Below the pieces are notes generated by a model. The model was not told the DNA's origin and made no database searches. It saw only the letters and a list, made by a program, of their open reading frames with translations. The position numbers and the translations under genes were made by a program. 55,853 nt of DNA from Opitutus sp. GAS368. Its GTDB lineage: Bacteria; Verrucomicrobiota; Verrucomicrobiia; Opitutales; Opitutaceae. Location: assembly GCA_945903545.1 (NCBI GenBank), contig CAMDOO010000009.1, positions 1-55,853 of the forward strand, given 5' to 3'. Numbering within the stretch: the stretch's first letter is position 1; every line of letters starts with the position of its first letter. Positions 1,163 to 55,171 of this stretch are shown in pieces.

Positions 1163-4100
1163 TCAGCGCCGGAACAGGTTGTCCAGGGCACTGAGGTTCT
1201 TCAGCGGTGCGCTTTTCTTCGCGGGATCGGTCAGCAACGGGCGCTTGGGCGGCGGCTCGGCCTTGGTCGGCAGCGGTGCATTCGCCGGACCCGCCGGCAG
1301 CTCGGCCCGGGCGCGGTCCAGTTTCGCAACCGACACCGGCTCGGCCGTCCCGAGCTCCTGAGCAAACAGACTCACGCGGAATTCCTCGACGAGCCAGCGG
1401 AAGTGGATGGCGGCGTCCCTTGTAGTCCGGGTGAACTCACCCGGAGAGCGATCCATTCCGGGTGAGGTCACCCGGACTACATCCGATCTCATTTTTGCAA
1501 TCAGCGCGGCATGCGGCGCAAGCTGCGCCAGACGCTCGGCATCCTTTGTCGGGTTCTGCCTCCAGCGATCAGCCCGGACTTTCATCGCCTTCAGGTAGCG
1601 CGGAAAATGCGCGAGCTGCGCGTACGGCGTGATGCGCAGAAAATCCGCCGGGATCAGAGCATCGAGGTCCCGCTCCAGTCCGGCCGGGGGCGTCGGATGA
1701 ACCAGCAGCGCCTGCCGCAGCGTGAGGATCTCGCGCAGCAGGTCGGTGAAGCGGGGGACGAGACCGCGCAGGTCGGCCTTGGATTTTCCCACGGCGGCGG
1801 AGAAGGCGGTGGAAGCAAGGTAGGGGCGCGTGTCCCCACGCGCCCTTGATGTTGGTCCCTCTGCGGGGGTCTTTTCCGAACCAGGACGGTTAGGGACAAC
1901 CGTCCCTACCTCGGAGGTCCCGACCCGCTGGGCGTCACACACCCAGCCGCGGATCATCGCAAACGCGTCTTCCTGCAGCGACTCCATGGGCGTGAGCGTG
2001 GAGGCCAGCGGTCCCAGCGTGCGCAGCGCGCGCAGGTCGCGCTCCAGCCAGCCGAGATCGCCGCCGAGTTGGCGCTCCAACAACGCGCCAAGCCCGGCCT
2101 CCGTTGCGCGCCGGGCCTCCTCCACGGTCTTGAACAACCGCAGCGCCACCCCGTCGCGCTGCGCCAGCAGGCCGGGCCAGGCAAGCAGCGGCACGCCGGC
2201 ATGGTCGCCCACCTCCACCTGCTCCGGGATGTCGCCAAAGGTCCACGCGGTCTGCGGCGGTTTCTCCCAGCGCACGCGCGCCCGCACCCATTCGGGCGGT
2301 TCCGCCTTCGCCGCGGCCGCCGTCGCCGCCCGCCGGCGCACGTCGAGCGCCGCGTGGATCTCCACCAGGTCGCGGCTCGCGCAAAGCTCCTTCCCATCGG
2401 CGTCGACCACCCGCACGCGCACCCGGAGGTGATCCGGCAGGGGTTTACCCGCCCAGATCTCCGGATCGACCGCGAGCCGGAATCCCTCGCGCAGGTGCGC
2501 GGCCAGCGCCGCGGTCAGGCTTTCCCGCCGACCGGTCAGGCGGTCGCGCTGCGCCACTTGCACCGCCACGGCTTTCGCCGTTTCCGTCAGCGGCACGAAC
2601 GCGCGCCTCAGTTCCTTCGGCAGGCTCTTCAGATAGAATTCCACCTTGTCCGCCAGATGACCCGGCACGGCCCAGTCGAGCGCGGCGGGTGTCAGGTCCT
2701 CCGCCCCGCGCACGTCCACCTCGAGCGTCACGCCGTCCTCCGCCTGACCCGGGCGATAGGCATAGGCGAGCGGCAGCGCGGAATTCTCCAGCGGCAGCGC
2801 CTCGGGAAATGCCTCGCGGTCCGGCTCCGGCGCCGCGGGATCGCGCAGGTCGTCGGCGTCCATCATCAGGAACTTCGGGTCGGCGCCCCGGCGCCCGCGC
2901 ATGAGGTCGACCAGGTCGGCTACGGCTGAGATACCGACAAGAATCTCATTTGTTTTTACAGGAGATAACGGAGGCAACGGAGATCGGTTTCCGACATTCT
3001 CCGTTCTCTTCGTTCCCTCCTGTAAAACCGGTTTGGGCATCAAACGAGCCGCGTAGAAGCGGTAGGCCGCCTCATCGAGGTTGAGGTAGCCGCGGTCGCG
3101 GGTCCGGGTGAGGTCGGATTCCACCGCGGCGCGGACCCGGCGGTTGTGCTCCAGAAAATCGAAGGGCCAGGTGATCGTGTCGTTGACCAGGCCCTCGCGG
3201 ATGAAGAGCTCGGTGGCGTGCACGGGATCGACGCGGCCGTAACCCACCGCGCGGCTGTCGATCTCGAGTCCGTACAGCCGGGTGCGCTGGCGCACCATCA
3301 CGCGGCCCTGCGCCTCGTCCCAGAACGGTTCGCTGTGGGCGACGCGCACGAGGTGCGCGCCGAGTTCCAGCGCCCACGCCGGGTCGAGCCGGGCGCAGGT
3401 GCGGGCGTAGAGGCGGGTGGTCTCGGTGATCTCGGCCGCCATGATCCAGCGCGGGCCGCGGGTCTTCGGCGCGGAGCGCGACGGGTTGGTCTTCTTCTTC
3501 GGGTCGTCGCGCTGGTAGAGCGCCGAGCCGGGAAAGAGGTTCACCTTGCGGTCGTGGGTTGCCTTGTAACCGCCGTTCTCCTCATCGAGCCGCGCGATGT
3601 TGCCGAGCAGGCCGGCAAGGATGCTGCGGTGGACCGCCCAGTAACCGGGGGAGCCAAAGAGGAGCTTCTCGCTCGCGGCGGCGTCCGGCTTCACGCCGTC
3701 GAAGATCGAGGTCATCCGGAAACCCTCGCGCTGCTCGAGCGCGTCAAGCAGCTGGCCGTGGATGTCGCGCCACTCGCGCATGCGGGTGTAGCTGAGGAAA
3801 TGATCGCGGCAGAAGCGGCGCAGACGCGCCTGCGACATCGTGTCGAACTCCCCGTGCACGGAGTCCCAGATCTCCAGCAGCGTGAGGTAATCCGAGTCGG
3901 GATGAGTGAAGCGCCGGTGCGCGGCATCGGCCTGCGCCTGCTTGTCGAGCGGACGCTCCCGCGGATCCTGCACGCTCAGGCCGGCGGCGATCACGAGGAC
4001 CTCGCGCAGCGCCTTTTCCGTCCGGGCCTGCAGCACCATGCGCCCGACCGTCGGGTCGACGGGGAGGCGGGCCAACTCACGGCCCAAGGCCGTGAGTTGC

Positions 4101-13778: not shown

Positions 13779-13837
13779 GTAGGAGCGGCTTTACGCCGCG
13801 AACGATCGAAACTCTCGCGGCGTAAAGCTGCTCCTAC
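13779..13837. repeat. GTAGGAGCGGCTTTACGCCGCGA palindrome
   Basis: Two 23-nt arms (gtaggagcggctttacg... and its complement) match at 22 positions around a 13-nt loop. It begins 3 nt after the padR stop codon and ends 22 nt before the next start. I have seen the same motif dispersed in other proteobacterial and verrucomicrobial genomes. Confidence 0.85.
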
Positions 13838-19661: not shown

Positions 19662-21167
19662 GTGGCTTTCCTGGAATTCCATCACATCACGAAGCGCTTC
19701 CCCGGCGCCCTCGCGCTTGACGGCGTGAGCTTCGCCGTGGAGCGCGGCACTTGCCACGCGCTCATCGGCGAGAACGGCGCGGGCAAGAGCACGCTCGGCC
19801 GGATTCTCGCGGGCGTGCACACGGCCGACTCCGGCGAGATCCGCCTCGACGGCCGCGTCGTGCACCCGAGCTCGCCGCTCGCCGCCCGCCGGCTCGGCAT
19901 CGCGATGGTCCACCAGGAACTCGCCTTCTGCCCGAACCTGACCGTCGCCGAGAACCTCTGCCTCGGCGATCTCCCGCGCCGCGCCTTCGGTTGGGTCGAC
20001 CGGTCTGAGCTGCATCAGCGCGCGAGAACAATGCTGGCCGAGATCGGCGCGGCCATCGATCCCGGTGCCGTCATCGGCACGCTTTCCACCGGCAAGGAGC
20101 AGCTCGTGCAGATCGCCGCCGCGGTCGGCAGCGGCGCACAGGTGATCGTGATGGACGAGCCCACCAGTTCGCTTTCCAGCGGCGAGACCCGTGAGCTCTT
20201 TCGGCTCGTCCGCGCGCTTAAGGCCCGCGGCATCACCCTCATCTACGTCTCCCACCGGATGGAGGAGCTCTTTGAACTGTGCGACTCCGTGACGGTCCTC
20301 CGCGACGGGCGGTTCGTCGCCACCGAGCCCATCGCCGCCACCAACCAGGCGCGCGTCGTGCGGCAGATGACCGGCCGCGAGCTGCTCGTGCAGACCCCGT
20401 CCCACCTCGGCCGCGAGCTCGGCGACGAATACCTGCGGGTGGAGAATCTGGCTTCACCCGGGCGCTTTGCCGGCGTGGGCCTCACCCTGCGCGCCGGCGA
20501 GGTCGTCGGCCTCGCCGGGCTCGTCGGCGCCGGCCGCAGCGAGGTGGCGCAGGCGATCCTCGGTCTCGACCCCGCGGCCACCGGGCACGTTTGGGTGCGC
20601 GGCACGGAATTGAAACTCGGCTCAATGGCCGCCGCCATGGCTGCCGGGCTCGGCCTCGTGCCGGAGGACCGGAAGCGCCAGGGGCTCGTGCTGCCGCTGA
20701 ATTGCCGCGAGAACACCGCGCTCGCCGCCCTGCCCCTCCTTACCCGCGCTGGCTGGGTCCAGCGGGCCGCCGAACGGGAACTCGTGAACCGCTACGCCGC
20801 CCGGCTGCGGGTCCGGACATCCTCCATGGAGGCGACGATCGCCACCTTGAGCGGCGGCAACCAGCAGAAGCTGGCCCTCGCCAAATGGCTCGCCCGCGAT
20901 TGCGACGTGCTGATCGTCGACGAACCCACGCGCGGCATCGATGTCGGAGCCAAAGCCGAGATCTACCAGCTCCTCGACGAGCTTGCCGCCGAGGGTAAGG
21001 CCCTCCTCGTGATTTCCTCGGAGCTGCCGGAACTGATCGGCCTGTGCCGCCGCATCCTCGTCATGCGCGAGGGCCGCCTCGCCGGTGAGGTCCCGCGCGC
21101 CGGCTTCAGCGAAGCCGCGCTGATGGAGATCATGGCGGGCGTGACTGAAGTGACGAGTGACAGGTGA
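19662..21167 (+). CDS. sugar ABC transporter ATP-binding protein (RbsA type)
   Basis: 501 residues with two nucleotide-binding domains, as in RbsA/XylG. First NBD: Walker A GENGAGKST (about 36-44), signature LSTGKEQLV, Walker B VIVMDEPTSSLS. Second NBD: the usual degenerate Walker A GLVGAGRSE, signature LSGGNQQKL and VLIVDEPTRGID. The frame is open back to 19485 through repeat DNA; GTG 19662 gives VAFLEFHHITKRFPGALALDGVSF, the normal family N-terminus. GTG 19632 or 19641, both in the repeat arm, are possible. The last codons (VTEVTSDR) are encoded by another palindrome. Confidence 0.92.
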   Translation: MAFLEFHHITKRFPGALALDGVSFAVERGTCHALIGENGAGKSTLGRILAGVHTADSGEIRLDGRVVHPSSPLAARRLGIAMVHQELAFCPNLTVAENLCLGDLPRRAFGWVDRSELHQRARTMLAEIGAAIDPGAVIGTLSTGKEQLVQIAAAVGSGAQVIVMDEPTSSLSSGETRELFRLVRALKARGITLIYVSHRMEELFELCDSVTVLRDGRFVATEPIAATNQARVVRQMTGRELLVQTPSHLGRELGDEYLRVENLASPGRFAGVGLTLRAGEVVGLAGLVGAGRSEVAQAILGLDPAATGHVWVRGTELKLGSMAAAMAAGLGLVPEDRKRQGLVLPLNCRENTALAALPLLTRAGWVQRAAERELVNRYAARLRVRTSSMEATIATLSGGNQQKLALAKWLARDCDVLIVDEPTRGIDVGAKAEIYQLLDELAAEGKALLVISSELPELIGLCRRILVMREGRLAGEVPRAGFSEAALMEIMAGVTEVTSDR

Positions 21168-21248
21168 CGAGACTCGGCACCGAGCCGACAGACCGGCTCT
21201 CGACTCGCAGAGCCTCCGTCTCGTCACTCGTCACCTGTCACTCGTCAC
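21150..21248. repeat. GTGACGA-heptamer palindrome at the ATPase stop codon
   Basis: The left arm 21150-21173 reads gtgacga-gtgacag-gtgacga-gac. The complement of the right arm 21218-21248 reads gtgacga-gtgacag-gtgacga-gtgacga-gac. The arms are identical except for one extra 7-nt unit on the right. The ATPase stop codon (21165-21167) is in the left arm, and the converging binding-protein gene ends 6 nt past the right arm. Confidence 0.9.
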
Positions 21249-21253
21249 TAGAA

Positions 21254-22240
21254 TCATTTCGGCAGCCACTTTTCCCAGTTCTTGGCGAAGGCCTCGACGT
21301 TGGCCTTCGTGACCGGGGTCAGCGGGCTGGCGTCGTCGACGCTCGGGGGATCCTTCTTGAAATGCAGCTTGTCGATCAGGCGCTCGACCGAGCGGTAGCC
21401 ATAGCCGTAGACGTCCTGCGAGAGGAGCAGCTGCACGTGGCCGCTGCGCACGTAATCCAGCTGCTGCGGCAGCGCGTCGACGGCGACAGTCTGGATGGTG
21501 CCGGGACGCCACTTCAGCGCGTTGTCGGTGAAGAGCGGCCAGCCGCCGAGGAGGCCCCAGCCGGTGATGTCGGGATTGGCCTGCATGACCTGCTCGATCT
21601 TCGCGACGGCGTCCTGCGGGGTCTCCTTGTGGTAATAGATGTCGAGGAGCTTGATGTTGGGATATTTCTTCGCGGCGGCACGGAAGCCGGCGGCGCGTTG
21701 CTGAAGGTTGGCGGCGTTCGGGTTGCCGTCGATCGCGGCGACCACGCCCCGGCCCTTGAGCAGCTTGGCCAGTTCCTCGAAGGTCTGCTCGCCGCACTTG
21801 AAGTCGTCGATGCCGAGCGAGACGAACCGCTTGCTGGCCGGCGCATCGCCCGAGAACGTGACCACCGGCACGCCGCGGCCCGCGGCCTTGTTGATCGCGT
21901 CGTTGAGCTTGTTGGCGTCGGAGGCGCTGACGATGATGCCGTCCACGCCGGCGAGCAGAAGCTGCTCAATGGATTCCGCCTGTTTCTGGGCGTCCTCCTC
22001 GTTCGGCGTGCGCCAGTCGATCTTGATGGTGATGCCGTACTTGGCGCCGAGTTCCTTGGCGGCGTCCTTGGCCCCGGAATGGGCGGCCTCGAAGAACTGG
22101 TTGCCCTGGGACTTGGCGATCATGCCGAGCGTGTAGGTCTTGGTCGCGGCCGCACCGGCGTGCAGCAGGGCGGGAGCGGTGAGAAGCAGACAGGCAAGCA
22201 AGCGGCGCAGGGGCCGCAGTGAGGTGGGGATGGGGCTCAT
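21254..22240 (-). CDS. second sugar-binding protein (RbsB type), paralogue
   Basis: 328 residues: signal peptide (SLRPLRRLLACLLLTAPALLHAGAA) and the same periplasmic binding fold as the protein at 17214. Long identical blocks include DWRTPNEEDAQKQA, YYHKETPQDA, QVMQANPDITGW and NWEKWLPK. The start at ATG 22240 yields the signal peptide; the upstream extension to 22315 is unlikely. It converges on the ATPase gene and has no permease or ATPase of its own nearby, so it may share the transporter while binding a different sugar. Confidence 0.92.
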   Translation of the reverse strand: MSPIPTSLRPLRRLLACLLLTAPALLHAGAAATKTYTLGMIAKSQGNQFFEAAHSGAKDAAKELGAKYGITIKIDWRTPNEEDAQKQAESIEQLLLAGVDGIIVSASDANKLNDAINKAAGRGVPVVTFSGDAPASKRFVSLGIDDFKCGEQTFEELAKLLKGRGVVAAIDGNPNAANLQQRAAGFRAAAKKYPNIKLLDIYYHKETPQDAVAKIEQVMQANPDITGWGLLGGWPLFTDNALKWRPGTIQTVAVDALPQQLDYVRSGHVQLLLSQDVYGYGYRSVERLIDKLHFKKDPPSVDDASPLTPVTKANVEAFAKNWEKWLPK

Positions 22241-25822: not shown

Positions 25823-26166
25823 GGGGCTACAGCACCTTATGAGGGGCGATTCGGGTGTAAATTCCGAATGCCGTACGGAATGCACCGGATTGCTTCACCC
25901 AGAGACACCGAGAGCACAGAGCCCAAGCCTTCCCGCGGATGGCACGGATCGACGCGGATATTCCACCCAAATCCGGTTCCGACATCCGCGTTAATCCGTG
26001 CCATCCGCGGGAAAGTTTGGGGTCTTTTGGTTGGGGCTTGTATGACCAACCGGTCGAAATTGATTTTGTCTGGCCGTGCCAAAGACGGAAGCCACGCTTC
26101 GCACCCTGTTCCGCCGCCGACGTCCGCCCCTTCGTCCGCGGCACCCACCCCTGTCCGCCGTTCATC
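25823..26166. other. 344-nt divergent intergenic region
   Basis: Contains the promoter side of the Rieske operon, a truncated palindromic element with another inside it (25897-26013) and about 150 nt before the beta-propeller gene with no repeat and no recognised promoter motif. No ORF here is convincing. Confidence 0.6.
25897..26013. repeat. half CACAGAG element interrupted by a CCGCGGATGG palindrome
   Basis: A left arm of the CACAGAG family (cacccagagacaccgagagc, then acagagcccaagcc, 25897-25929) is followed directly by a complete palindrome ttcccgcggatggcacgg ... ccgtgccatccgcgggaa (25930-26013). No matching right arm follows. It looks like an element whose second half was lost after the inner insertion. 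Confidence 0.7.
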
Positions 26167-27540: not shown

Positions 27541-27565
27541 GGCAGCCGGCGCCGAGCCGCCGGAA

Positions 27566-27718
27566 ACGCTCAACTTTCAACGCTGAACGTTAAGACGATC
27601 CCGGGGTGGAGGTCCACCCCGGCTACAGATGTAGGCCGGCAGACCTCTGCCGGCATGCCGGATAGGATGTCTTGGTAGCACCTTCCGAAACTTGAGCGTT
27701 CAGCGTTAAAAGTTGAGC
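27566..27718. repeat. compound palindrome with GTAG/CTAC modules
   Basis: The outer arms (aacgctcaactttcaacg, ctgaacgtt on the left; gcgttcagcgttaaaa, gttgagcgtt on the right) enclose two internal hairpins, ccggggtggaggtccaccccggctac and gtaggccggcagacctctgccgg. The same two hairpins occur in the reverse order and orientation at 34140-34282. Confidence 0.8.
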
Positions 27719-27736
27719 GTTCGCCCGGAGATCGGG

Positions 27737-28715: not shown

Positions 28716-28727
28716 CTCCAAACCGTT

Positions 28728-28844
28728 GGTCACGCAGAGACGCGGAGAACGCCGAGTTCAATCCGGTCCTGATTCCATCAGCGTGGATCTGCGTTATCCG
28801 CGGGAAGCTCGGACTCTGCGCGCTCTGCGTCTCTGCGTGACAAA
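28728..28844. repeat. CGCAGAGACGCGGAG-type palindrome
   Basis: The left arm (ggtcacgcagagacgcgg, agaacgccgag) and right arm (ctcggactctgcgcgctc, tgcgtctctgcgtgac) lie between converging genes. The loop carries half of a gtggatctgcgttatccgcggg element with no partner. Confidence 0.75.
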
Positions 28845-28862
28845 TAGTCCGGAACCCGCCCC

Positions 28863-35188: not shown

Positions 35189-35224
35189 GGGGGCGGGACC
35201 AACGAAGCCATATTCGGAAGGGGT

Positions 35225-35305
35225 GTCACGCAGAGACGCGGAGAACGCAGAGGACGGACAAATCTCCCGGTCTCGTCCTCTGCGTTCTCCGCGTCTCTGC
35301 GTGAC
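35225..35305. repeat. 30-bp perfect inverted repeat between divergent genes
   Basis: Arms 35225-35254 (gtcacgcagagacgcgg, agaacgcagagga) and 35276-35305 are perfect complements around a 21-nt loop. It is the cleanest copy of the CGCAGAG family here. It lies between the divergent starts of the ArnD-like and methyltransferase genes, so both promoters flank or include it. Confidence 0.92.
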
Positions 35306-35360
35306 ATCTGCTCGACACTCCGCAGGGCCGGCCCTTGCCTCGCACCGTCTCCCTCCCGCC

Positions 35361-39165: not shown

Positions 39166-39180
39166 GAGATTGGGCAATCC

Positions 39181-39218
39181 ATAGGCCCTATAGGACCTAT
39201 AAGCCCTATAGGGCCTAT
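39181..39218. repeat. 38-nt palindrome overlapping a start codon
   Basis: ataggccctataggacct faces aagccctatagggcctat; 17 of 19 arm positions pair. The ATG of the next gene (39217-39219) begins in the right arm. Unit length is about 9 nt (ataggccct, ataggacct). Confidence 0.8.
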
Positions 39219-40128
39219 GATTTCGGAAACCTCCTCAGCCACTGGTACCACCGTCCTGCCAGAAGCCGTCTGGCGCCAGCTCCAGCAGGCCCACGAGCGC
39301 CGGGTGCGGGCATGGACCGATCCGCACCAGCTCCGTGCCGCGCGCGGGGAAAAGCATCCGGTGCACGATTTCCTGTTTCATTATTATGCCTTCCGGCCGT
39401 CGTGGCTCCGCCGCTGGCATCCGGGGCCGGATGTCGTGCTCACCGGCGAGGGGGCGCGCGAATTTCTGGCCCGGCCGGGCTACCGGCTGCTCGGCGCAAA
39501 CGCCGGGGAGTCACCCGCCGTGGCGGTGGATCCCGCGGCGCTGTCGCCCGGCCGGCGGGAATTCGTCGCCTGGCTGCGCGGCCTGCTCAGCGCCATGCGG
39601 ACCCGCCCGCCGTATTTCGGCTGCTTCGGGTTGCACGAGTGGGCGATGGTCTACCGGCAGACGCCCGAAGAAGTGCGCCACAACCAGCACCCGCTGCGGT
39701 TTCCCCCAGAGGAGATCGCCCGGATCGTCGCGGCGTCCGCGATCTGCTGCTCGCACCATGACGCCTTCCGCTTTTTCACGGCGCCGGCGCGGCCGTTGAA
39801 CCGGCTCCAGCCCGCCCGGGACGACGCGCCCGCGCTCGAGCAGCGCGGCTGCCTGCACGCCAACATGGATCTCTACAAGTGGGCCTTCAAGCTGGCCCCG
39901 TTCACGCCGGCCGAGCTCACCGCCGACTGCTTCGAGCTGGCGCGCGACATTCGCGAGGTGGACATGCGCGCCAGCCCGTACGATCTGCGCACCCTCGGTT
40001 TCGAACCGATCGCGATCGAGAACCCCGCCGGCCGCGAGGAGTATGAACGCCACCAGCGGGCCTTCACCGCGCGCGGCGAGCCGGTGCGCGCCCGGCTGCT
40101 CGCGCTTTGCGACCGGTTGCTGGGTTAG
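39217..40128 (+). CDS. conserved protein often annotated as 3-methyladenine DNA glycosylase
   Basis: 303 residues. The pattern RRVRAWTDPHQLRAARGEKHPVHDFLFHYYAFRPSWLRRWHPG followed by YFGCFGLHEWAMVYRQTPEEVRHNQHPLR and HDAFRFFTAPARPLNRLQP ... MDLYKWAFKLAP is a family I recall from actinobacterial and verrucomicrobial genomes labelled as 3-methyladenine DNA glycosylase. I see no helix-hairpin-helix or AlkA-type catalytic Asp, so I do not endorse the activity. Soluble. The start codon is in a repeat arm; the conserved part begins near residue 14. Confidence 0.72.
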   Translation: MISETSSATGTTVLPEAVWRQLQQAHERRVRAWTDPHQLRAARGEKHPVHDFLFHYYAFRPSWLRRWHPGPDVVLTGEGAREFLARPGYRLLGANAGESPAVAVDPAALSPGRREFVAWLRGLLSAMRTRPPYFGCFGLHEWAMVYRQTPEEVRHNQHPLRFPPEEIARIVAASAICCSHHDAFRFFTAPARPLNRLQPARDDAPALEQRGCLHANMDLYKWAFKLAPFTPAELTADCFELARDIREVDMRASPYDLRTLGFEPIAIENPAGREEYERHQRAFTARGEPVRARLLALCDRLLG

Positions 40129-43280: not shown

Positions 43281-43823
43281 TCAGTAGGTGAACGCCACCG
43301 CGCCGAGCACGACTCCGTAGGCCAGCAGCCCGCCGCCGAGCACCCGGGCGCGCGGGCCGGGCCGGAACAGCCACTCCAGGAAGTCGCGCATCCGCCACGG
43401 CTGGGCCCCGAGCCAGATCGCCGCCGGCAGGGCGATCAGGTAGAGCGGCGCGACCATGAACAGCCGCTGGGGCTGGTCGTATTGCATGTACGCCGCATCG
43501 AGCAGGGGCATCGCGCCGACCAGCACGCAGACCGCCAGGCCGCGCACTGCGAGGAAATCCGGCACGAGAAACAACGACAGCACCGCCAGCACCGAGAAGC
43601 CAATGAGCAGGTAGACCTTGTAGTCGCCGAAGTCGGCCGGCGAGAGGTGCGCCACGCGGTAGAGGAACCCCAGGGTGCCAAGCCCAAGGAAGAGGAAGCT
43701 GGCCGGGGTGGAGCGCGGGAATCCCCGGAGGATCGAGACCACCGCCGGCGAACCGAGGAGCAACGCCACGCCGAGCAGCAGAAAAAGTGCGGCGGTCAGG
43801 AGCGTGGCGAGGGAAAGCGTCAT
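43281..43823 (-). CDS. hypothetical integral membrane protein
   Basis: 180 residues with five or six hydrophobic segments (LATLLTAALFLLLGVALLLG, FLFLGLGTLGFLYRV, VYLLIGFSVLAVLSLFLV, GLAVCVLVGAMPLL, APLYLIALPAAIWLG, GGGLLAYGVVLGAVAF). No family recognised. It is conserved enough in composition to be real and sits 31 nt upstream of gmk on the same strand. Its start lies 13 nt from the left inverted repeat of the four-helix-bundle element. Confidence 0.75.
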   Translation of the reverse strand: MTLSLATLLTAALFLLLGVALLLGSPAVVSILRGFPRSTPASFLFLGLGTLGFLYRVAHLSPADFGDYKVYLLIGFSVLAVLSLFLVPDFLAVRGLAVCVLVGAMPLLDAAYMQYDQPQRLFMVAPLYLIALPAAIWLGAQPWRMRDFLEWLFRPGPRARVLGGGLLAYGVVLGAVAFTY

Positions 43824-43836
43824 GGAGTCAGTAGTG

Positions 43837-43871
43837 CTCGTTCTCGTTCTCTTACTCGTTCTCGTTCTCCC
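43837..43871. repeat. left inverted repeat of the four-helix-bundle element
   Basis: Built of hexamers ctcgtt-ctcgtt-ctctta-ctcgtt-ctcgtt-ctccc. It encodes the last residues (ENENE) and stop codon of the enclosed gene on the minus strand. It pairs with 44286-44318 at 32 of 33 positions. Confidence 0.9.
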
Positions 43872-44277
43872 GATAAAGATTCACCCCACCTCGGGCCGGA
43901 TGGAGGGGATCTTCGCGGACTTCGCCCGAGAACCGGGAAATCAAGCCCGCTACCAAGCTCACCACTCCAAGCAGGATCTCCTTGCCGACAGCGGCTTCAT
44001 CCACCCCCAGCTTCTTCTTTACCACCAAGACATCCAAACAGGCCGCGCATTCCACGGCCGAGCCCCTCGCGATATCCAGATAACGACACCGATCCACATG
44101 TGAGCGTTTGCCGTTTCCCTCGGCAATGTTGAGTGGAACGCTTGTGGAGGCCCGATCAAGCTGGTCGCGCGCAGCCATGCGGGCAGGAATGCCCTCGATG
44201 ATTGGATCGGCCCACGCAACAAACCTCAGCGCTTCCTGATAGGCCCGTAGCTTCTCGTGGTCGAATTGGGCAGACAT
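43852..44277 (-). CDS. four helix bundle protein (23S rRNA intervening-sequence / S23 family)
   Basis: 141 residues. The family pattern is clear: FDHEKLRAYQEALRFVAW at the N-terminus, RDQLDRASTSVPLNIAEGNGKRSHVDRCRYLDIARGSAVECAACLDVL in the middle and a helical C-terminal part. These proteins form pentameric four-helix bundles; relatives are encoded in intervening sequences of 23S rRNA and as Avd in diversity-generating retroelements. No rRNA or reverse transcriptase is nearby. The gene lies exactly between 33-bp inverted repeats, and its final residues and stop codon come from the left repeat. This looks like cargo of a palindromic element between miaB and a membrane protein gene. Confidence 0.93.
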   Translation of the reverse strand: MSAQFDHEKLRAYQEALRFVAWADPIIEGIPARMAARDQLDRASTSVPLNIAEGNGKRSHVDRCRYLDIARGSAVECAACLDVLVVKKKLGVDEAAVGKEILLGVVSLVAGLISRFSGEVREDPLHPARGGVNLYRENENE

Positions 44278-44285
44278 TTCGGAAA

Positions 44286-44318
44286 GGAGAACGAGAACAA
44301 GTAAGAGAACGAGAACGA
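44286..44318. repeat. right inverted repeat of the four-helix-bundle element
   Basis: Complement of 43837-43869 with one mismatch. Its outer end abuts the stop codon of miaB (44319-44321) with no gap, and its inner end is 8 nt before the four-helix-bundle start codon, so the ribosome-binding region of that gene is in or beside the repeat. Confidence 0.9.
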
Positions 44319-45701
44319 TTATGGCCCCACGCCGGCCAGCACCAATTCGCCGTACAAAGTGCTCACCGAGGCGCGCTCAATCCGCAGCGGCTGCCGCGTG
44401 CCGGCCAGCCGGGGCGCCGCATCGAAGATGCAGACCCGGTTGCCGCGCGTGCGCCCGGTCCAGCGGCGCCCAGTCTGGTCCGGGCCCTCCACCAGCACCT
44501 CCTGCACCGTCCCGACCAGGCCGGCCGCGCGGCGGGTGGAATTGCGCTCGAGAATCGTCAGGAGCTCCTGGTTGCGGCGCTCCTTCACGTCGTCGGGGAC
44601 CTGGTCCGGCAGCTCCGCCGCGGGCGTGCCGGTCCGCACCGAGTACTTGAAGATGTAGGCCATGTCGAAATCGCAGGCCTCGAACAGCGCCTTGGTCTGC
44701 CCGAAGTCCTCCTCGGTCTCGCCCGGGAAACCGACGATCACGTCGGTGGAGAACGTCATGTCCGGACGCACCGCCCGCAGCGCGGCGATGATCTCCGCAT
44801 AGCGCTCGCGCGAATAGGGCCGGTTCATCGCCCGGAGGATGCGGTTGCTCCCCGACTGCATCGGCAGGTGGGCGTACTCGCAGAGCTTGGGCAACCGGCC
44901 GTAGGCCTCGATCAGGTCCTGCCGGAAGCCGCGCGGATGCGGCGAGGTGAACCGGATCCGCTCCAGCCCGTCGAGGGCGTTGACCCGCTCCAGCAGCTGC
45001 ACGAAGGGCGTAATTCCGCCCGTGTGTTCGTAGTCGCGGCGGCCATAGCTGGTCACGATCTGCCCGAGCAGGGTGATTTCCCGGACGCCCCGGCCGACGA
45101 GCGAACGGCACTCCGCGACGATGTCGTCCATCGGCCGCGAGCGCTCGTCGCCGCGGGTCTTGGGCACGATGCAGAAGGCACAGTCCATGTCACAGCCCTG
45201 CTGGATCGACACAAAAGCGGTGACCTGGGCCGCGGCATCCGGGGCCTCGTCCTGGGCGAGCACATGGTCGCGAATGGTGTTCTGCGACCCGGCCTCCTCG
45301 CCGATGTCGACGATGGTTTCGGCCAGCGGGACCCCCGTCGCCTGCGCCGCCCGGAGGTTGTCGAGATAACCCGGCACCTGGTGGAACTTCTGGGTCCCCA
45401 CGATCAGGTCGACGTCGGGCAGCTGGTCGAGGAGCGAGGCGCCGCGGTTCTGCGCCATGCACCCCAGAATCCCCAGGATGAAGTCGGGCCGCTTCTTTTT
45501 CCTGGCCTGGAGGTTGGCCGCCTTGCCGATGGCCTTTTGTTCGGCGGCATCACGGACACTGCAGGTGTTCAACAGGAGCACATCGCAGTCTTCCTCGGAG
45601 TTCACGATCCGGTACCCCCGGGCGCGCAGCATCGCCGCGACCGCCTCGCTGTCGCGTTCGTTCATCTGGCAACCATACGTCTTGATGTGGACTCGATTCA
45701 C
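44319..45701 (-). CDS. miaB: tRNA-2-methylthio-N6-dimethylallyladenosine synthase MiaB
   Basis: Radical-SAM methylthiotransferase that adds the 2-methylthio group to i6A37 of tRNAs reading UNN codons. 460 residues: N-terminal UPF0004 domain with cluster cysteines in KTYGCQMNERDS, LLNTCSVRD and LGCMAQNRG; radical SAM motif CDMDCAFCIVP; C-terminal TRAM domain. GTG 45701 is the start (residues MNRVHIKTYGCQMN). The gene ends flush with the right repeat of the four-helix-bundle element, so an insertion may have taken place at its stop codon. Confidence 0.96.
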   Translation of the reverse strand: MNRVHIKTYGCQMNERDSEAVAAMLRARGYRIVNSEEDCDVLLLNTCSVRDAAEQKAIGKAANLQARKKKRPDFILGILGCMAQNRGASLLDQLPDVDLIVGTQKFHQVPGYLDNLRAAQATGVPLAETIVDIGEEAGSQNTIRDHVLAQDEAPDAAAQVTAFVSIQQGCDMDCAFCIVPKTRGDERSRPMDDIVAECRSLVGRGVREITLLGQIVTSYGRRDYEHTGGITPFVQLLERVNALDGLERIRFTSPHPRGFRQDLIEAYGRLPKLCEYAHLPMQSGSNRILRAMNRPYSRERYAEIIAALRAVRPDMTFSTDVIVGFPGETEEDFGQTKALFEACDFDMAYIFKYSVRTGTPAAELPDQVPDDVKERRNQELLTILERNSTRRAAGLVGTVQEVLVEGPDQTGRRWTGRTRGNRVCIFDAAPRLAGTRQPLRIERASVSTLYGELVLAGVGP

Positions 45702-55083: not shown

Positions 55084-55171
55084 GAAATCTGGAACTCGGG
55101 AACGCAGGAAATTGAGCCGGACCTCTTCGGACGCAAACTGTCATTTCCTGCGTTCCCGAGTTCCAGATTTC
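55084..55171. repeat. 29-bp perfect inverted repeat
   Basis: Arms 55084-55112 (gaaatctggaactcgggaa, cgcaggaaat) and 55143-55171 are perfect complements around a 30-nt loop. It abuts the stop codon of the DUF5069 gene (55172-55174) with no gap and reaches to 3 nt from the start of the next gene downstream (55080). Confidence 0.93.

Follow-up and report, generated by a model that had tools for sequence, protein, structure and literature searches.

In the genome of Opitutus sp. GAS368, a gene of the S23 protein family is enclosed by the two arms of a nearly perfect inverted repeat, and most S23 genes of this genome, of its bacterial family and of a broad set of other phyla are enclosed in the same manner by arms whose sequence follows the subfamily of the enclosed protein. 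The gene described here keeps a stable site, gene-less palindromes of its repeat type are dispersed in the genome and co-occur with the gene among related genomes, and palindromes differ at corresponding sites of a sister species. The element is a home of an S23 family member and, by the features compared here, is not an rRNA intervening sequence (IVS), a RAYT system or a diversity-generating retroelement (DGR). The data suggest that each S23 protein maintains or propagates the repeat family to which its gene belongs.

The stretch of DNA analysed, referred to as the window, comprises 55,853 nt (assembly GCA_945903545.1, contig CAMDOO010000009.1, positions 1-55,853 of the forward strand). Its inverted repeat consists of a left arm at 43838-43870 and a right arm at 44286-44318 (coordinates of the plus strand), which are 33 nt long each, complementary at 32 of 33 positions (97%) and separated by 415 nt. 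A sequence-only reading of this DNA had proposed 33-nt repeats with 32 matches around a complete S23-type gene, and our inverted-repeat search and profile scores confirmed it; the coordinates given there stand for the right arm, while the left arm starts at 43838, one base later than assumed. The left arm, built of ctcgtt hexamers around a TTA spacer, encodes the final codons (ENENE) and the stop of the S23 gene, as had been noticed in that reading. The S23 gene itself (43852-44277, minus strand, 141 aa) forms the loop of the palindrome and is the sole gene between the arms, as judged from open reading frames and Pfam profiles. Downstream of it lies a membrane-protein gene (43281-43823, minus strand). 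Upstream is a miaB-like gene (44319-45701, minus strand), whose frame including the stop codon ends at 44319, so that no gap is left between it and the end of the right arm at 44318, again in agreement with the earlier description.

The enclosure was scored by aligning the left flank locally, with gaps allowed, to the reverse-complemented right flank, which gave 30.5 for the window locus. Mock genes set in the same loci (n=1,170) had a median score of 9.5 and a 99th percentile of 17.5, with 2.3% of them reaching 14 or more. Open stretches of 120 codons or more number 213 in the window, and five of these reached 14 and none reached 18. Chance can thus be excluded as the origin of this repeat.

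S23 proteins have been known for decades from intervening sequences of 23S rRNA, and we know of no function established for them. The window protein matches PF05635 (65.1 bits, cut-off 33.8), which is its only Pfam match, as well as TIGR02436 (56.1 bits, cut-off 24), and has no match to Y1/HUH profiles. Its AlphaFold2 model (mean pLDDT of 80.8) comprises helices at residues 7-28, 35-55, 60-89 and 94-121, and the model, Foldseek and phmmer agree on the four-helix bundle that characterizes PF05635/TIGR02436 proteins. The top ten Foldseek matches of the model are chains of the S23-family structures 2gsc and 2rld, with a modest best E-value of 1.2e-3; the phmmer comparison of the window protein with 2gsc gave an E-value of 8e-10. 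Weaker Foldseek neighbours are copper-storage proteins and Avd/DGR chains. Both 2gsc and 2rld were deposited with five chains, and 2gsc is described as a homopentamer in the section of the Coxiella study cited here (PMC4990558).

The gene is under purifying selection at its stable site. No stop codon occurs in the aligned core of the 30 copies of the window subfamily, and their pN is well below pS. Among the 12 closest pairs for which dS is finite, seven have a dN/dS ratio of 0.04-0.19, dS being unsaturated in only one of these (L105-L109, dS of 0.28 and dN/dS of 0.19).

Enclosure by inverted repeats is a property of most S23 loci that we compared. The Opitutus sp. GAS368 genome contains 13 PF05635 matches, of which 11 are enclosed according to an ungapped search, and all 13 score at least 16 in gapped alignment. 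When 48 matches listed for six chosen genomes of the family are added to these 13, 53 of the 61 loci reach 14 (median of 18.5) and 36 of them exceed 17.5; the eight loci below 14 are L234, L238, L239, L242, L250, L256, L263, and L267. The inference drawn from the sequence alone that palindromic elements can carry this gene is thereby supported, and the outcome that would have spoken against it, namely that no other family member is flanked by such repeats, did not occur. Since arrays are present in both senses at L018 and L019, these two loci score higher for direct than for inverted repeats. The frame of the four-helix-suffix gene of L019 crosses several blocks of its own repeat (2379-3338), which are translated as RTERSDPSDQSD and the like.

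The check that the earlier reading had proposed, i.e., inspection of other S23 genes with their flanks for inverted repeats, had the same outcome beyond the family. The cross-phylum set consisted of the best 80 of at least 577 confirmed matches, found by similarity to four proteins of this genome, and hence represents one broad subfamily; 75 of these loci were scored, and five with incomplete flanks were dropped. Scores above the 99th percentile of mock genes (14.5) were obtained for 53 of the 75 loci in inverted orientation versus seven in direct orientation, leaving 22 loci below the inverted-repeat threshold. By record titles, the 53 enclosed loci represent at least 11 phyla: Verrucomicrobiota, Acidobacteriota, Bacteroidota, Planctomycetota, Cyanobacteria, Chloroflexota, Pseudomonadota, Thermodesulfobacteriota, Nitrospirota, Bacillota (a single locus, L130, whose direct repeat is stronger), and Neomarinimicrobiota. 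Left and right arms taken from different loci pass the same threshold in 11.6% of 2,000 draws, since arms of different loci are similar. The upstream arm of this subfamily, read on the coding strand, is typically AGGAGTC/AGAAGTC. Two S23 loci, L120 and L182, have long direct repeats (scores of 68 and 88) in place of inverted ones.

S23 genes occur also on plasmids. The L011 protein matches 31 of 72,556 plasmid records, which are cyanobacterial for the most part, and all three Nostocales plasmid loci that we examined are enclosed, with scores of 14.5-17. The arms of these plasmid genes (L304-L306) are made of caggagt heptamers, which we take to be possibly the STRR heptamers of cyanobacteria. 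Carriage of the gene by phages was considered and rejected, as the L011 protein has no match among 50,697 phage records.

The arms are degenerate tandem arrays. Of 111 arms, 86 have a best period of 7 nt, the remaining ones having periods of 8 (11 arms), 6 (6), 9 (4), 12 (3), or 10 nt (1); shuffled arms show no preference for any such period. Between genomes, the similarity of arms is correlated with the similarity of the enclosed proteins (Mantel r of 0.53, exceeded in 0 of 999 permutations; 109 loci, duplicates included), so that arms are paired with protein subfamilies. Control segments located 150 nt further out gave a rho of 0.02 with protein similarity. The correlation persists upon the removal of four duplicate loci: the Mantel r is 0.527 for all loci, 0.45 for the cross-phylum set, and 0.588 for the family set, with 0 of 999 permutations in each case (106 of 141 loci, the dropped ones being the four duplicates, those scoring below 14, and those with an incomplete outer control). 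The rank correlation alone of arm and protein similarity is weak in the family set (0.188). The coupling could partly reflect the joint inheritance of arms and gene at one site and not recognition.

Close relatives of the window protein (E<1e-29) are encoded by 36 of 150 genomes of the family, including the genome studied, in one copy in 35 of them and in two copies in G058. In all 30 loci of this subfamily that were examined, representing 17 genera, the gene is placed between miaB upstream and the same membrane-protein gene downstream. The arms score at least 14 in 28 of these loci, with L096 and L117 as exceptions. The synteny contradicts a recent insertion of a protein-carrying element at miaB, which the sequence-only reading had implied and which we reject; it indicates that the gene stays at its site and the palindromes are those that are dispersed.

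A complementary view is provided by 30 membrane-gene loci of relatives, among which three match the S23 protein (the window locus included), one retains a 33-residue remnant, 21 contain miaB with no S23 match, and in five miaB was not seen. Inspection by eye of the 12 junctions that were printed showed a decayed ctcgtt arm in G002, a ctcgtt half in G024, and palindromes of other families in G017 and G019; no clean empty site was seen among the 12, only decayed or replaced ones, nor did a target-site duplication emerge. It looks as if palindromes at the spot between miaB and the membrane gene replace each other. At the junctions L276, L278, L284, and L286 of relatives, which lack an intact S23 gene, palindromes or arrays of other families are found.

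The repeat type of the window arms occurs in the genome well beyond the S23 locus. The unit CTCGTTCTCGTTCTC, with at most one mismatch, has 77 matches in the genome, and the reversed pattern has none. The loci sampled around these matches contain 15 short palindromes that are complete and measure 58-106 bp, next to half elements and plain arrays. A candidate 3-kb element between two ctcgtt arms (C1:21763-24834) was rejected: its long frames read by eye as ordinary genes, and the two arms are therefore taken as separate copies.

The presence of these repeats is associated with the presence of the gene. A longer ctcgtt pattern matched ten times or more in 17 of the 36 genomes that encode the subfamily versus 3 of the 114 that lack it (Fisher test, 6e-10), and in 22 of 36 versus 8 of 114 when the ctcttt variant was added, kinship being ignored in both counts. 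Matches of the ctcgtt pattern overlap, and thus long plain arrays inflate the counts in G065, G127, and G144; the ctcttt pattern is of low complexity and its reversed control matches as well, mostly in G077, G099, and G144. Kinship was taken into account by comparison within the 14 genera of mixed gene content, in 11 of which genomes with the gene have the higher count; two genera are tied, and in one, genus g18, the count is lower with the gene, against the trend (sign test, p of 0.006). The variant prevailing in the repeats of a genome tracks that in its S23 arms, ctcttt going with ctcttt (rho of 0.67, n=26), with the exception of G008, G127, and G068, where arms lean to ctcttt and repeats are mainly ctcgtt. 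Against a pairing of gene and repeats speak the 19 of 36 genomes that contain the subfamily and have fewer than ten ctcgtt matches, as well as G007, G047, and G114, which have 18-25 matches and no gene of the subfamily.

The comparison with the sister species G002, whose aligned blocks are 80-96% identical to the window, concerned eight palindromic sites. A matching arm is kept in G002 at none of them (arm versus segment scores of at most 13.5), although the window sequence itself reaches no more than 11.5 at one of the eight, 25152. At 21142, 23173, and 25152, G002 carries a different palindrome, with a score above those of its shuffles, while at 28717 and 39180 it reads as a decayed form of the same palindrome and not as a replacement; the decayed arm at the S23 site has been mentioned above. 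Hence, both decay and replacement occur. Point mutation can hardly account for the replacement at three sites, given the divergence of the two species.

What these results may mean mechanistically can be proposed with about an even chance of being right: the S23 protein, which is not a transposase, would recognize its own hairpin family and help to copy or keep its palindromes, in a pairing like that of RAYTs with REPINs. Co-occurrence of the gene with dispersed repeats is compatible with this proposal, as with the suggestion of the sequence-only reading that the protein may maintain, move or bind the hairpins. The S23 gene with its two arms would then be the home copy, stable in position, of a family of palindromic repeats, with one hairpin family per S23 subfamily and with arms that are short tandem arrays, of 7-nt units as a rule and of the ctcgtt type here. 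From here on we infer the formation of a ring, the binding of arms, and a copying or protection step. By analogy with the solved relatives, the protein would form a ring of five four-helix bundles, and this ring may recognize its own arms by their tandem units, presented as a folded strand of DNA or RNA. It would promote the copying or retention of gene-less palindromes elsewhere, as RAYTs do for REPINs; as S23 proteins have no transposase active site, the cutting would be left to an enzyme of the host or of a co-resident element. The net charge of the window subfamily, which is near zero, does not suggest a strong binder of nucleic acids and counts against this proposal.

A regulatory role at the RNA level is an unlikely explanation but one with several observations on its side. 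Here, S23 would bind hairpins in transcripts, those of its own mRNA and of the ends of other genes, and control translation or decay, while the repeats would spread by other means and be kept because they are bound. Several palindromes, as seen by eye, immediately follow stop codons and occupy short gaps. The upstream arm of the widespread subfamily is rich in AGGAG/AGAAG, and its end immediately precedes the start codon in the three plasmid loci of Nostocales, so that its binding could block the ribosome site; the upstream arm of the window subfamily, however, is pyrimidine-rich and has no such site. RNase III cuts the RNA of the Coxiella IVS at the first heptamer repeat, according to the part of the study cited (PMC4990558). 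Regulation alone explains neither the differences between the palindromes that sister species carry at orthologous sites nor the link between copy number and the presence of the gene.

Less probable still is a selfish element of the IVS type, whose arms would allow its excision from transcripts by RNase III and thereby its tolerance at any site, with S23 assisting the insertion of its own element only and solo palindromes being relics of deletions. The anatomy seen here is that of the 23S rRNA IVS, with terminal inverted repeats, heptamers, and an S23 ORF, as these are described in the cited section (PMC4990558). Among 11 arm groups that recur across genomes, two (gagggagtgaggg and gtgac) are found at different sites in different genera and three (agtagcgag, agtgagagtga, and ttattgg) are split over sites, as expected for such an element, but six are syntenic for all or most members, which, together with the invariable location of the window subfamily, indicates that the gene-bearing copy moves seldom. 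That the genome has one gene copy and, in the sampled loci alone, 15 complete palindromes without a gene also argues against it.

The palindromes could alternatively be MITEs moved by resident RAYT-like (Y1) transposases, with S23 as a passenger, and their REPIN-like look and the three Y1_Tnp matches in the genome, all on contigs other than that of the window, agree with that. We regard this as very improbable: REPs of the GTAG type flank two RAYT-like loci, L351 and L352, so that the known REPIN-RAYT system appears as a separate co-resident; the 1.5 kb examined on either side of each of the three Y1 loci is free of ctcgtt repeats; and a passenger S23 does not predict the pairing of arms with protein subfamilies. 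Finally, an Avd-like partnership with a reverse transcriptase acting on hairpin RNA can be given hardly any credence. In its favour are Avd and DGR ribonucleoprotein chains among the weaker Foldseek neighbours (rank 13 and below, E of at least 0.29) and matches of the L009, L010, and L012 proteins to the Avd profile, far below its cut-off. Against it, the window protein does not match that profile at E<=0.001, and no reverse transcriptase (RVT_1) was found in this genome, which is 98.6% complete, versus 3 of 14 control genomes that were positive.

The closest functional parallel of the proposed pairing is the REPIN-RAYT system (PMC8049555), and the closest structural one is the 23S rRNA IVS with heptamers (PMC4990558), as far as these are described in the sections cited. 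RAYTs are presented there as single-copy and vertically inherited genes; a cognate gene kept at one site and flanked by its own repeats, with palindromes dispersed elsewhere, is common to both systems (PMC8049555), as is the single-copy state, S23 of the window subfamily being a single-copy gene in nearly all genomes that encode it and site-stable in all loci examined. Unlike RAYTs, the protein is an S23 four-helix bundle with no Y1/HUH match, and the arms are tandem arrays of mostly 6-9-nt units and not the GTAG- or CGTC-tagged hairpins of the cited description (PMC3733652). With Avd of DGRs the protein shares a broadly similar four-helix fold, at the level of a weak match, and differs by the lack of RVT_1 in the genome. 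In the IVS with an S23p ORF described in Coxiella, and in those of Leptospira and others cited there, the ORF is likewise located inside terminal inverted repeats, and in the Coxiella IVS the ORF is preceded by tandem heptamers and the terminal stem measures 28 bp (PMC4990558). In contrast, the window element is located between miaB and a membrane-protein gene in each of the 30 loci and not in rRNA, a genome contains many paralogous families with arms of their own, and gene-less palindromes are dispersed. Moreover, the ORF is under purifying selection here, whereas the Coxiella ORF is reported in the same excerpt to undergo reductive evolution (PMC4990558).

Among the open-licence PMC articles listed by our literature searches, none reported S23 genes paired with dispersed palindromes. 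The pairing of arms with subfamilies predicts that each S23 protein prefers its own arm. If it holds, it would account for a part of the short intergenic palindromes and heptamer arrays of several phyla.

A second class of genes in this genome has the same architecture of enclosure, namely the GxxExxY genes, assigned by PF13366 (PDDEXK_3) and, for three that were scanned, by TIGR04256. Of their 11 matches, two were excluded as fragments beside others, and 8 of the 9 loci scored have inverted repeats of at least 14, L307 being the one that does not; in L309 the direct repeat is stronger than the inverted one. They share the inverted-repeat enclosure with S23 genes and differ from them in protein family and arm types. 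A wider generalization, to which we would give a little less than an even chance, is that hairpin families each have a dedicated small protein, be it a RAYT, an S23 ring, or a GxxExxY protein of a nuclease family, encoded in the loop and co-varying with the hairpins that it copies or guards, the 23S rRNA IVS being one such family that landed in rRNA. Hairpin families with dedicated proteins would then extend beyond RAYTs by at least two classes, S23 and GxxExxY.

Palindromes of the window scoring at least 19 number 24, and nine of them match arms of resident genes at 15 or more: two those of S23-type genes, six those of GxxExxY genes, and one that of a RAYT. Examples are the gtgac-type solo palindrome at 21142-21256, which matches the arms of a resident S23 gene (C25, L012), the ataggccctata-type one at 39180-39219, which matches the arms of the four-helix-suffix gene C51 (L018), the one at 25918-26025, which matches the arms of a GxxExxY gene (L311), and the classical GTAG-type REP pair at 13779-13837, which matches the arms of a RAYT-like gene (L351). 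In a comparison with 20 random segments of the window for each palindrome, the arm match of 38115 is not above the best segment, and those of 2954 and 35224 exceed it by just 0.5 and 1.5, respectively; such segments may contain real palindromes. The remaining 15 palindromes matched none of the arms tested, and strong palindromes at 55084-55171 and 27565-27721 are unmatched by the resident S23, GxxExxY, and RAYT arms that were compared. The arms of the GxxExxY loci L308-L315 resemble the solo palindromes of the window at 25918-26025, 28717-28853, and 35224-35306.
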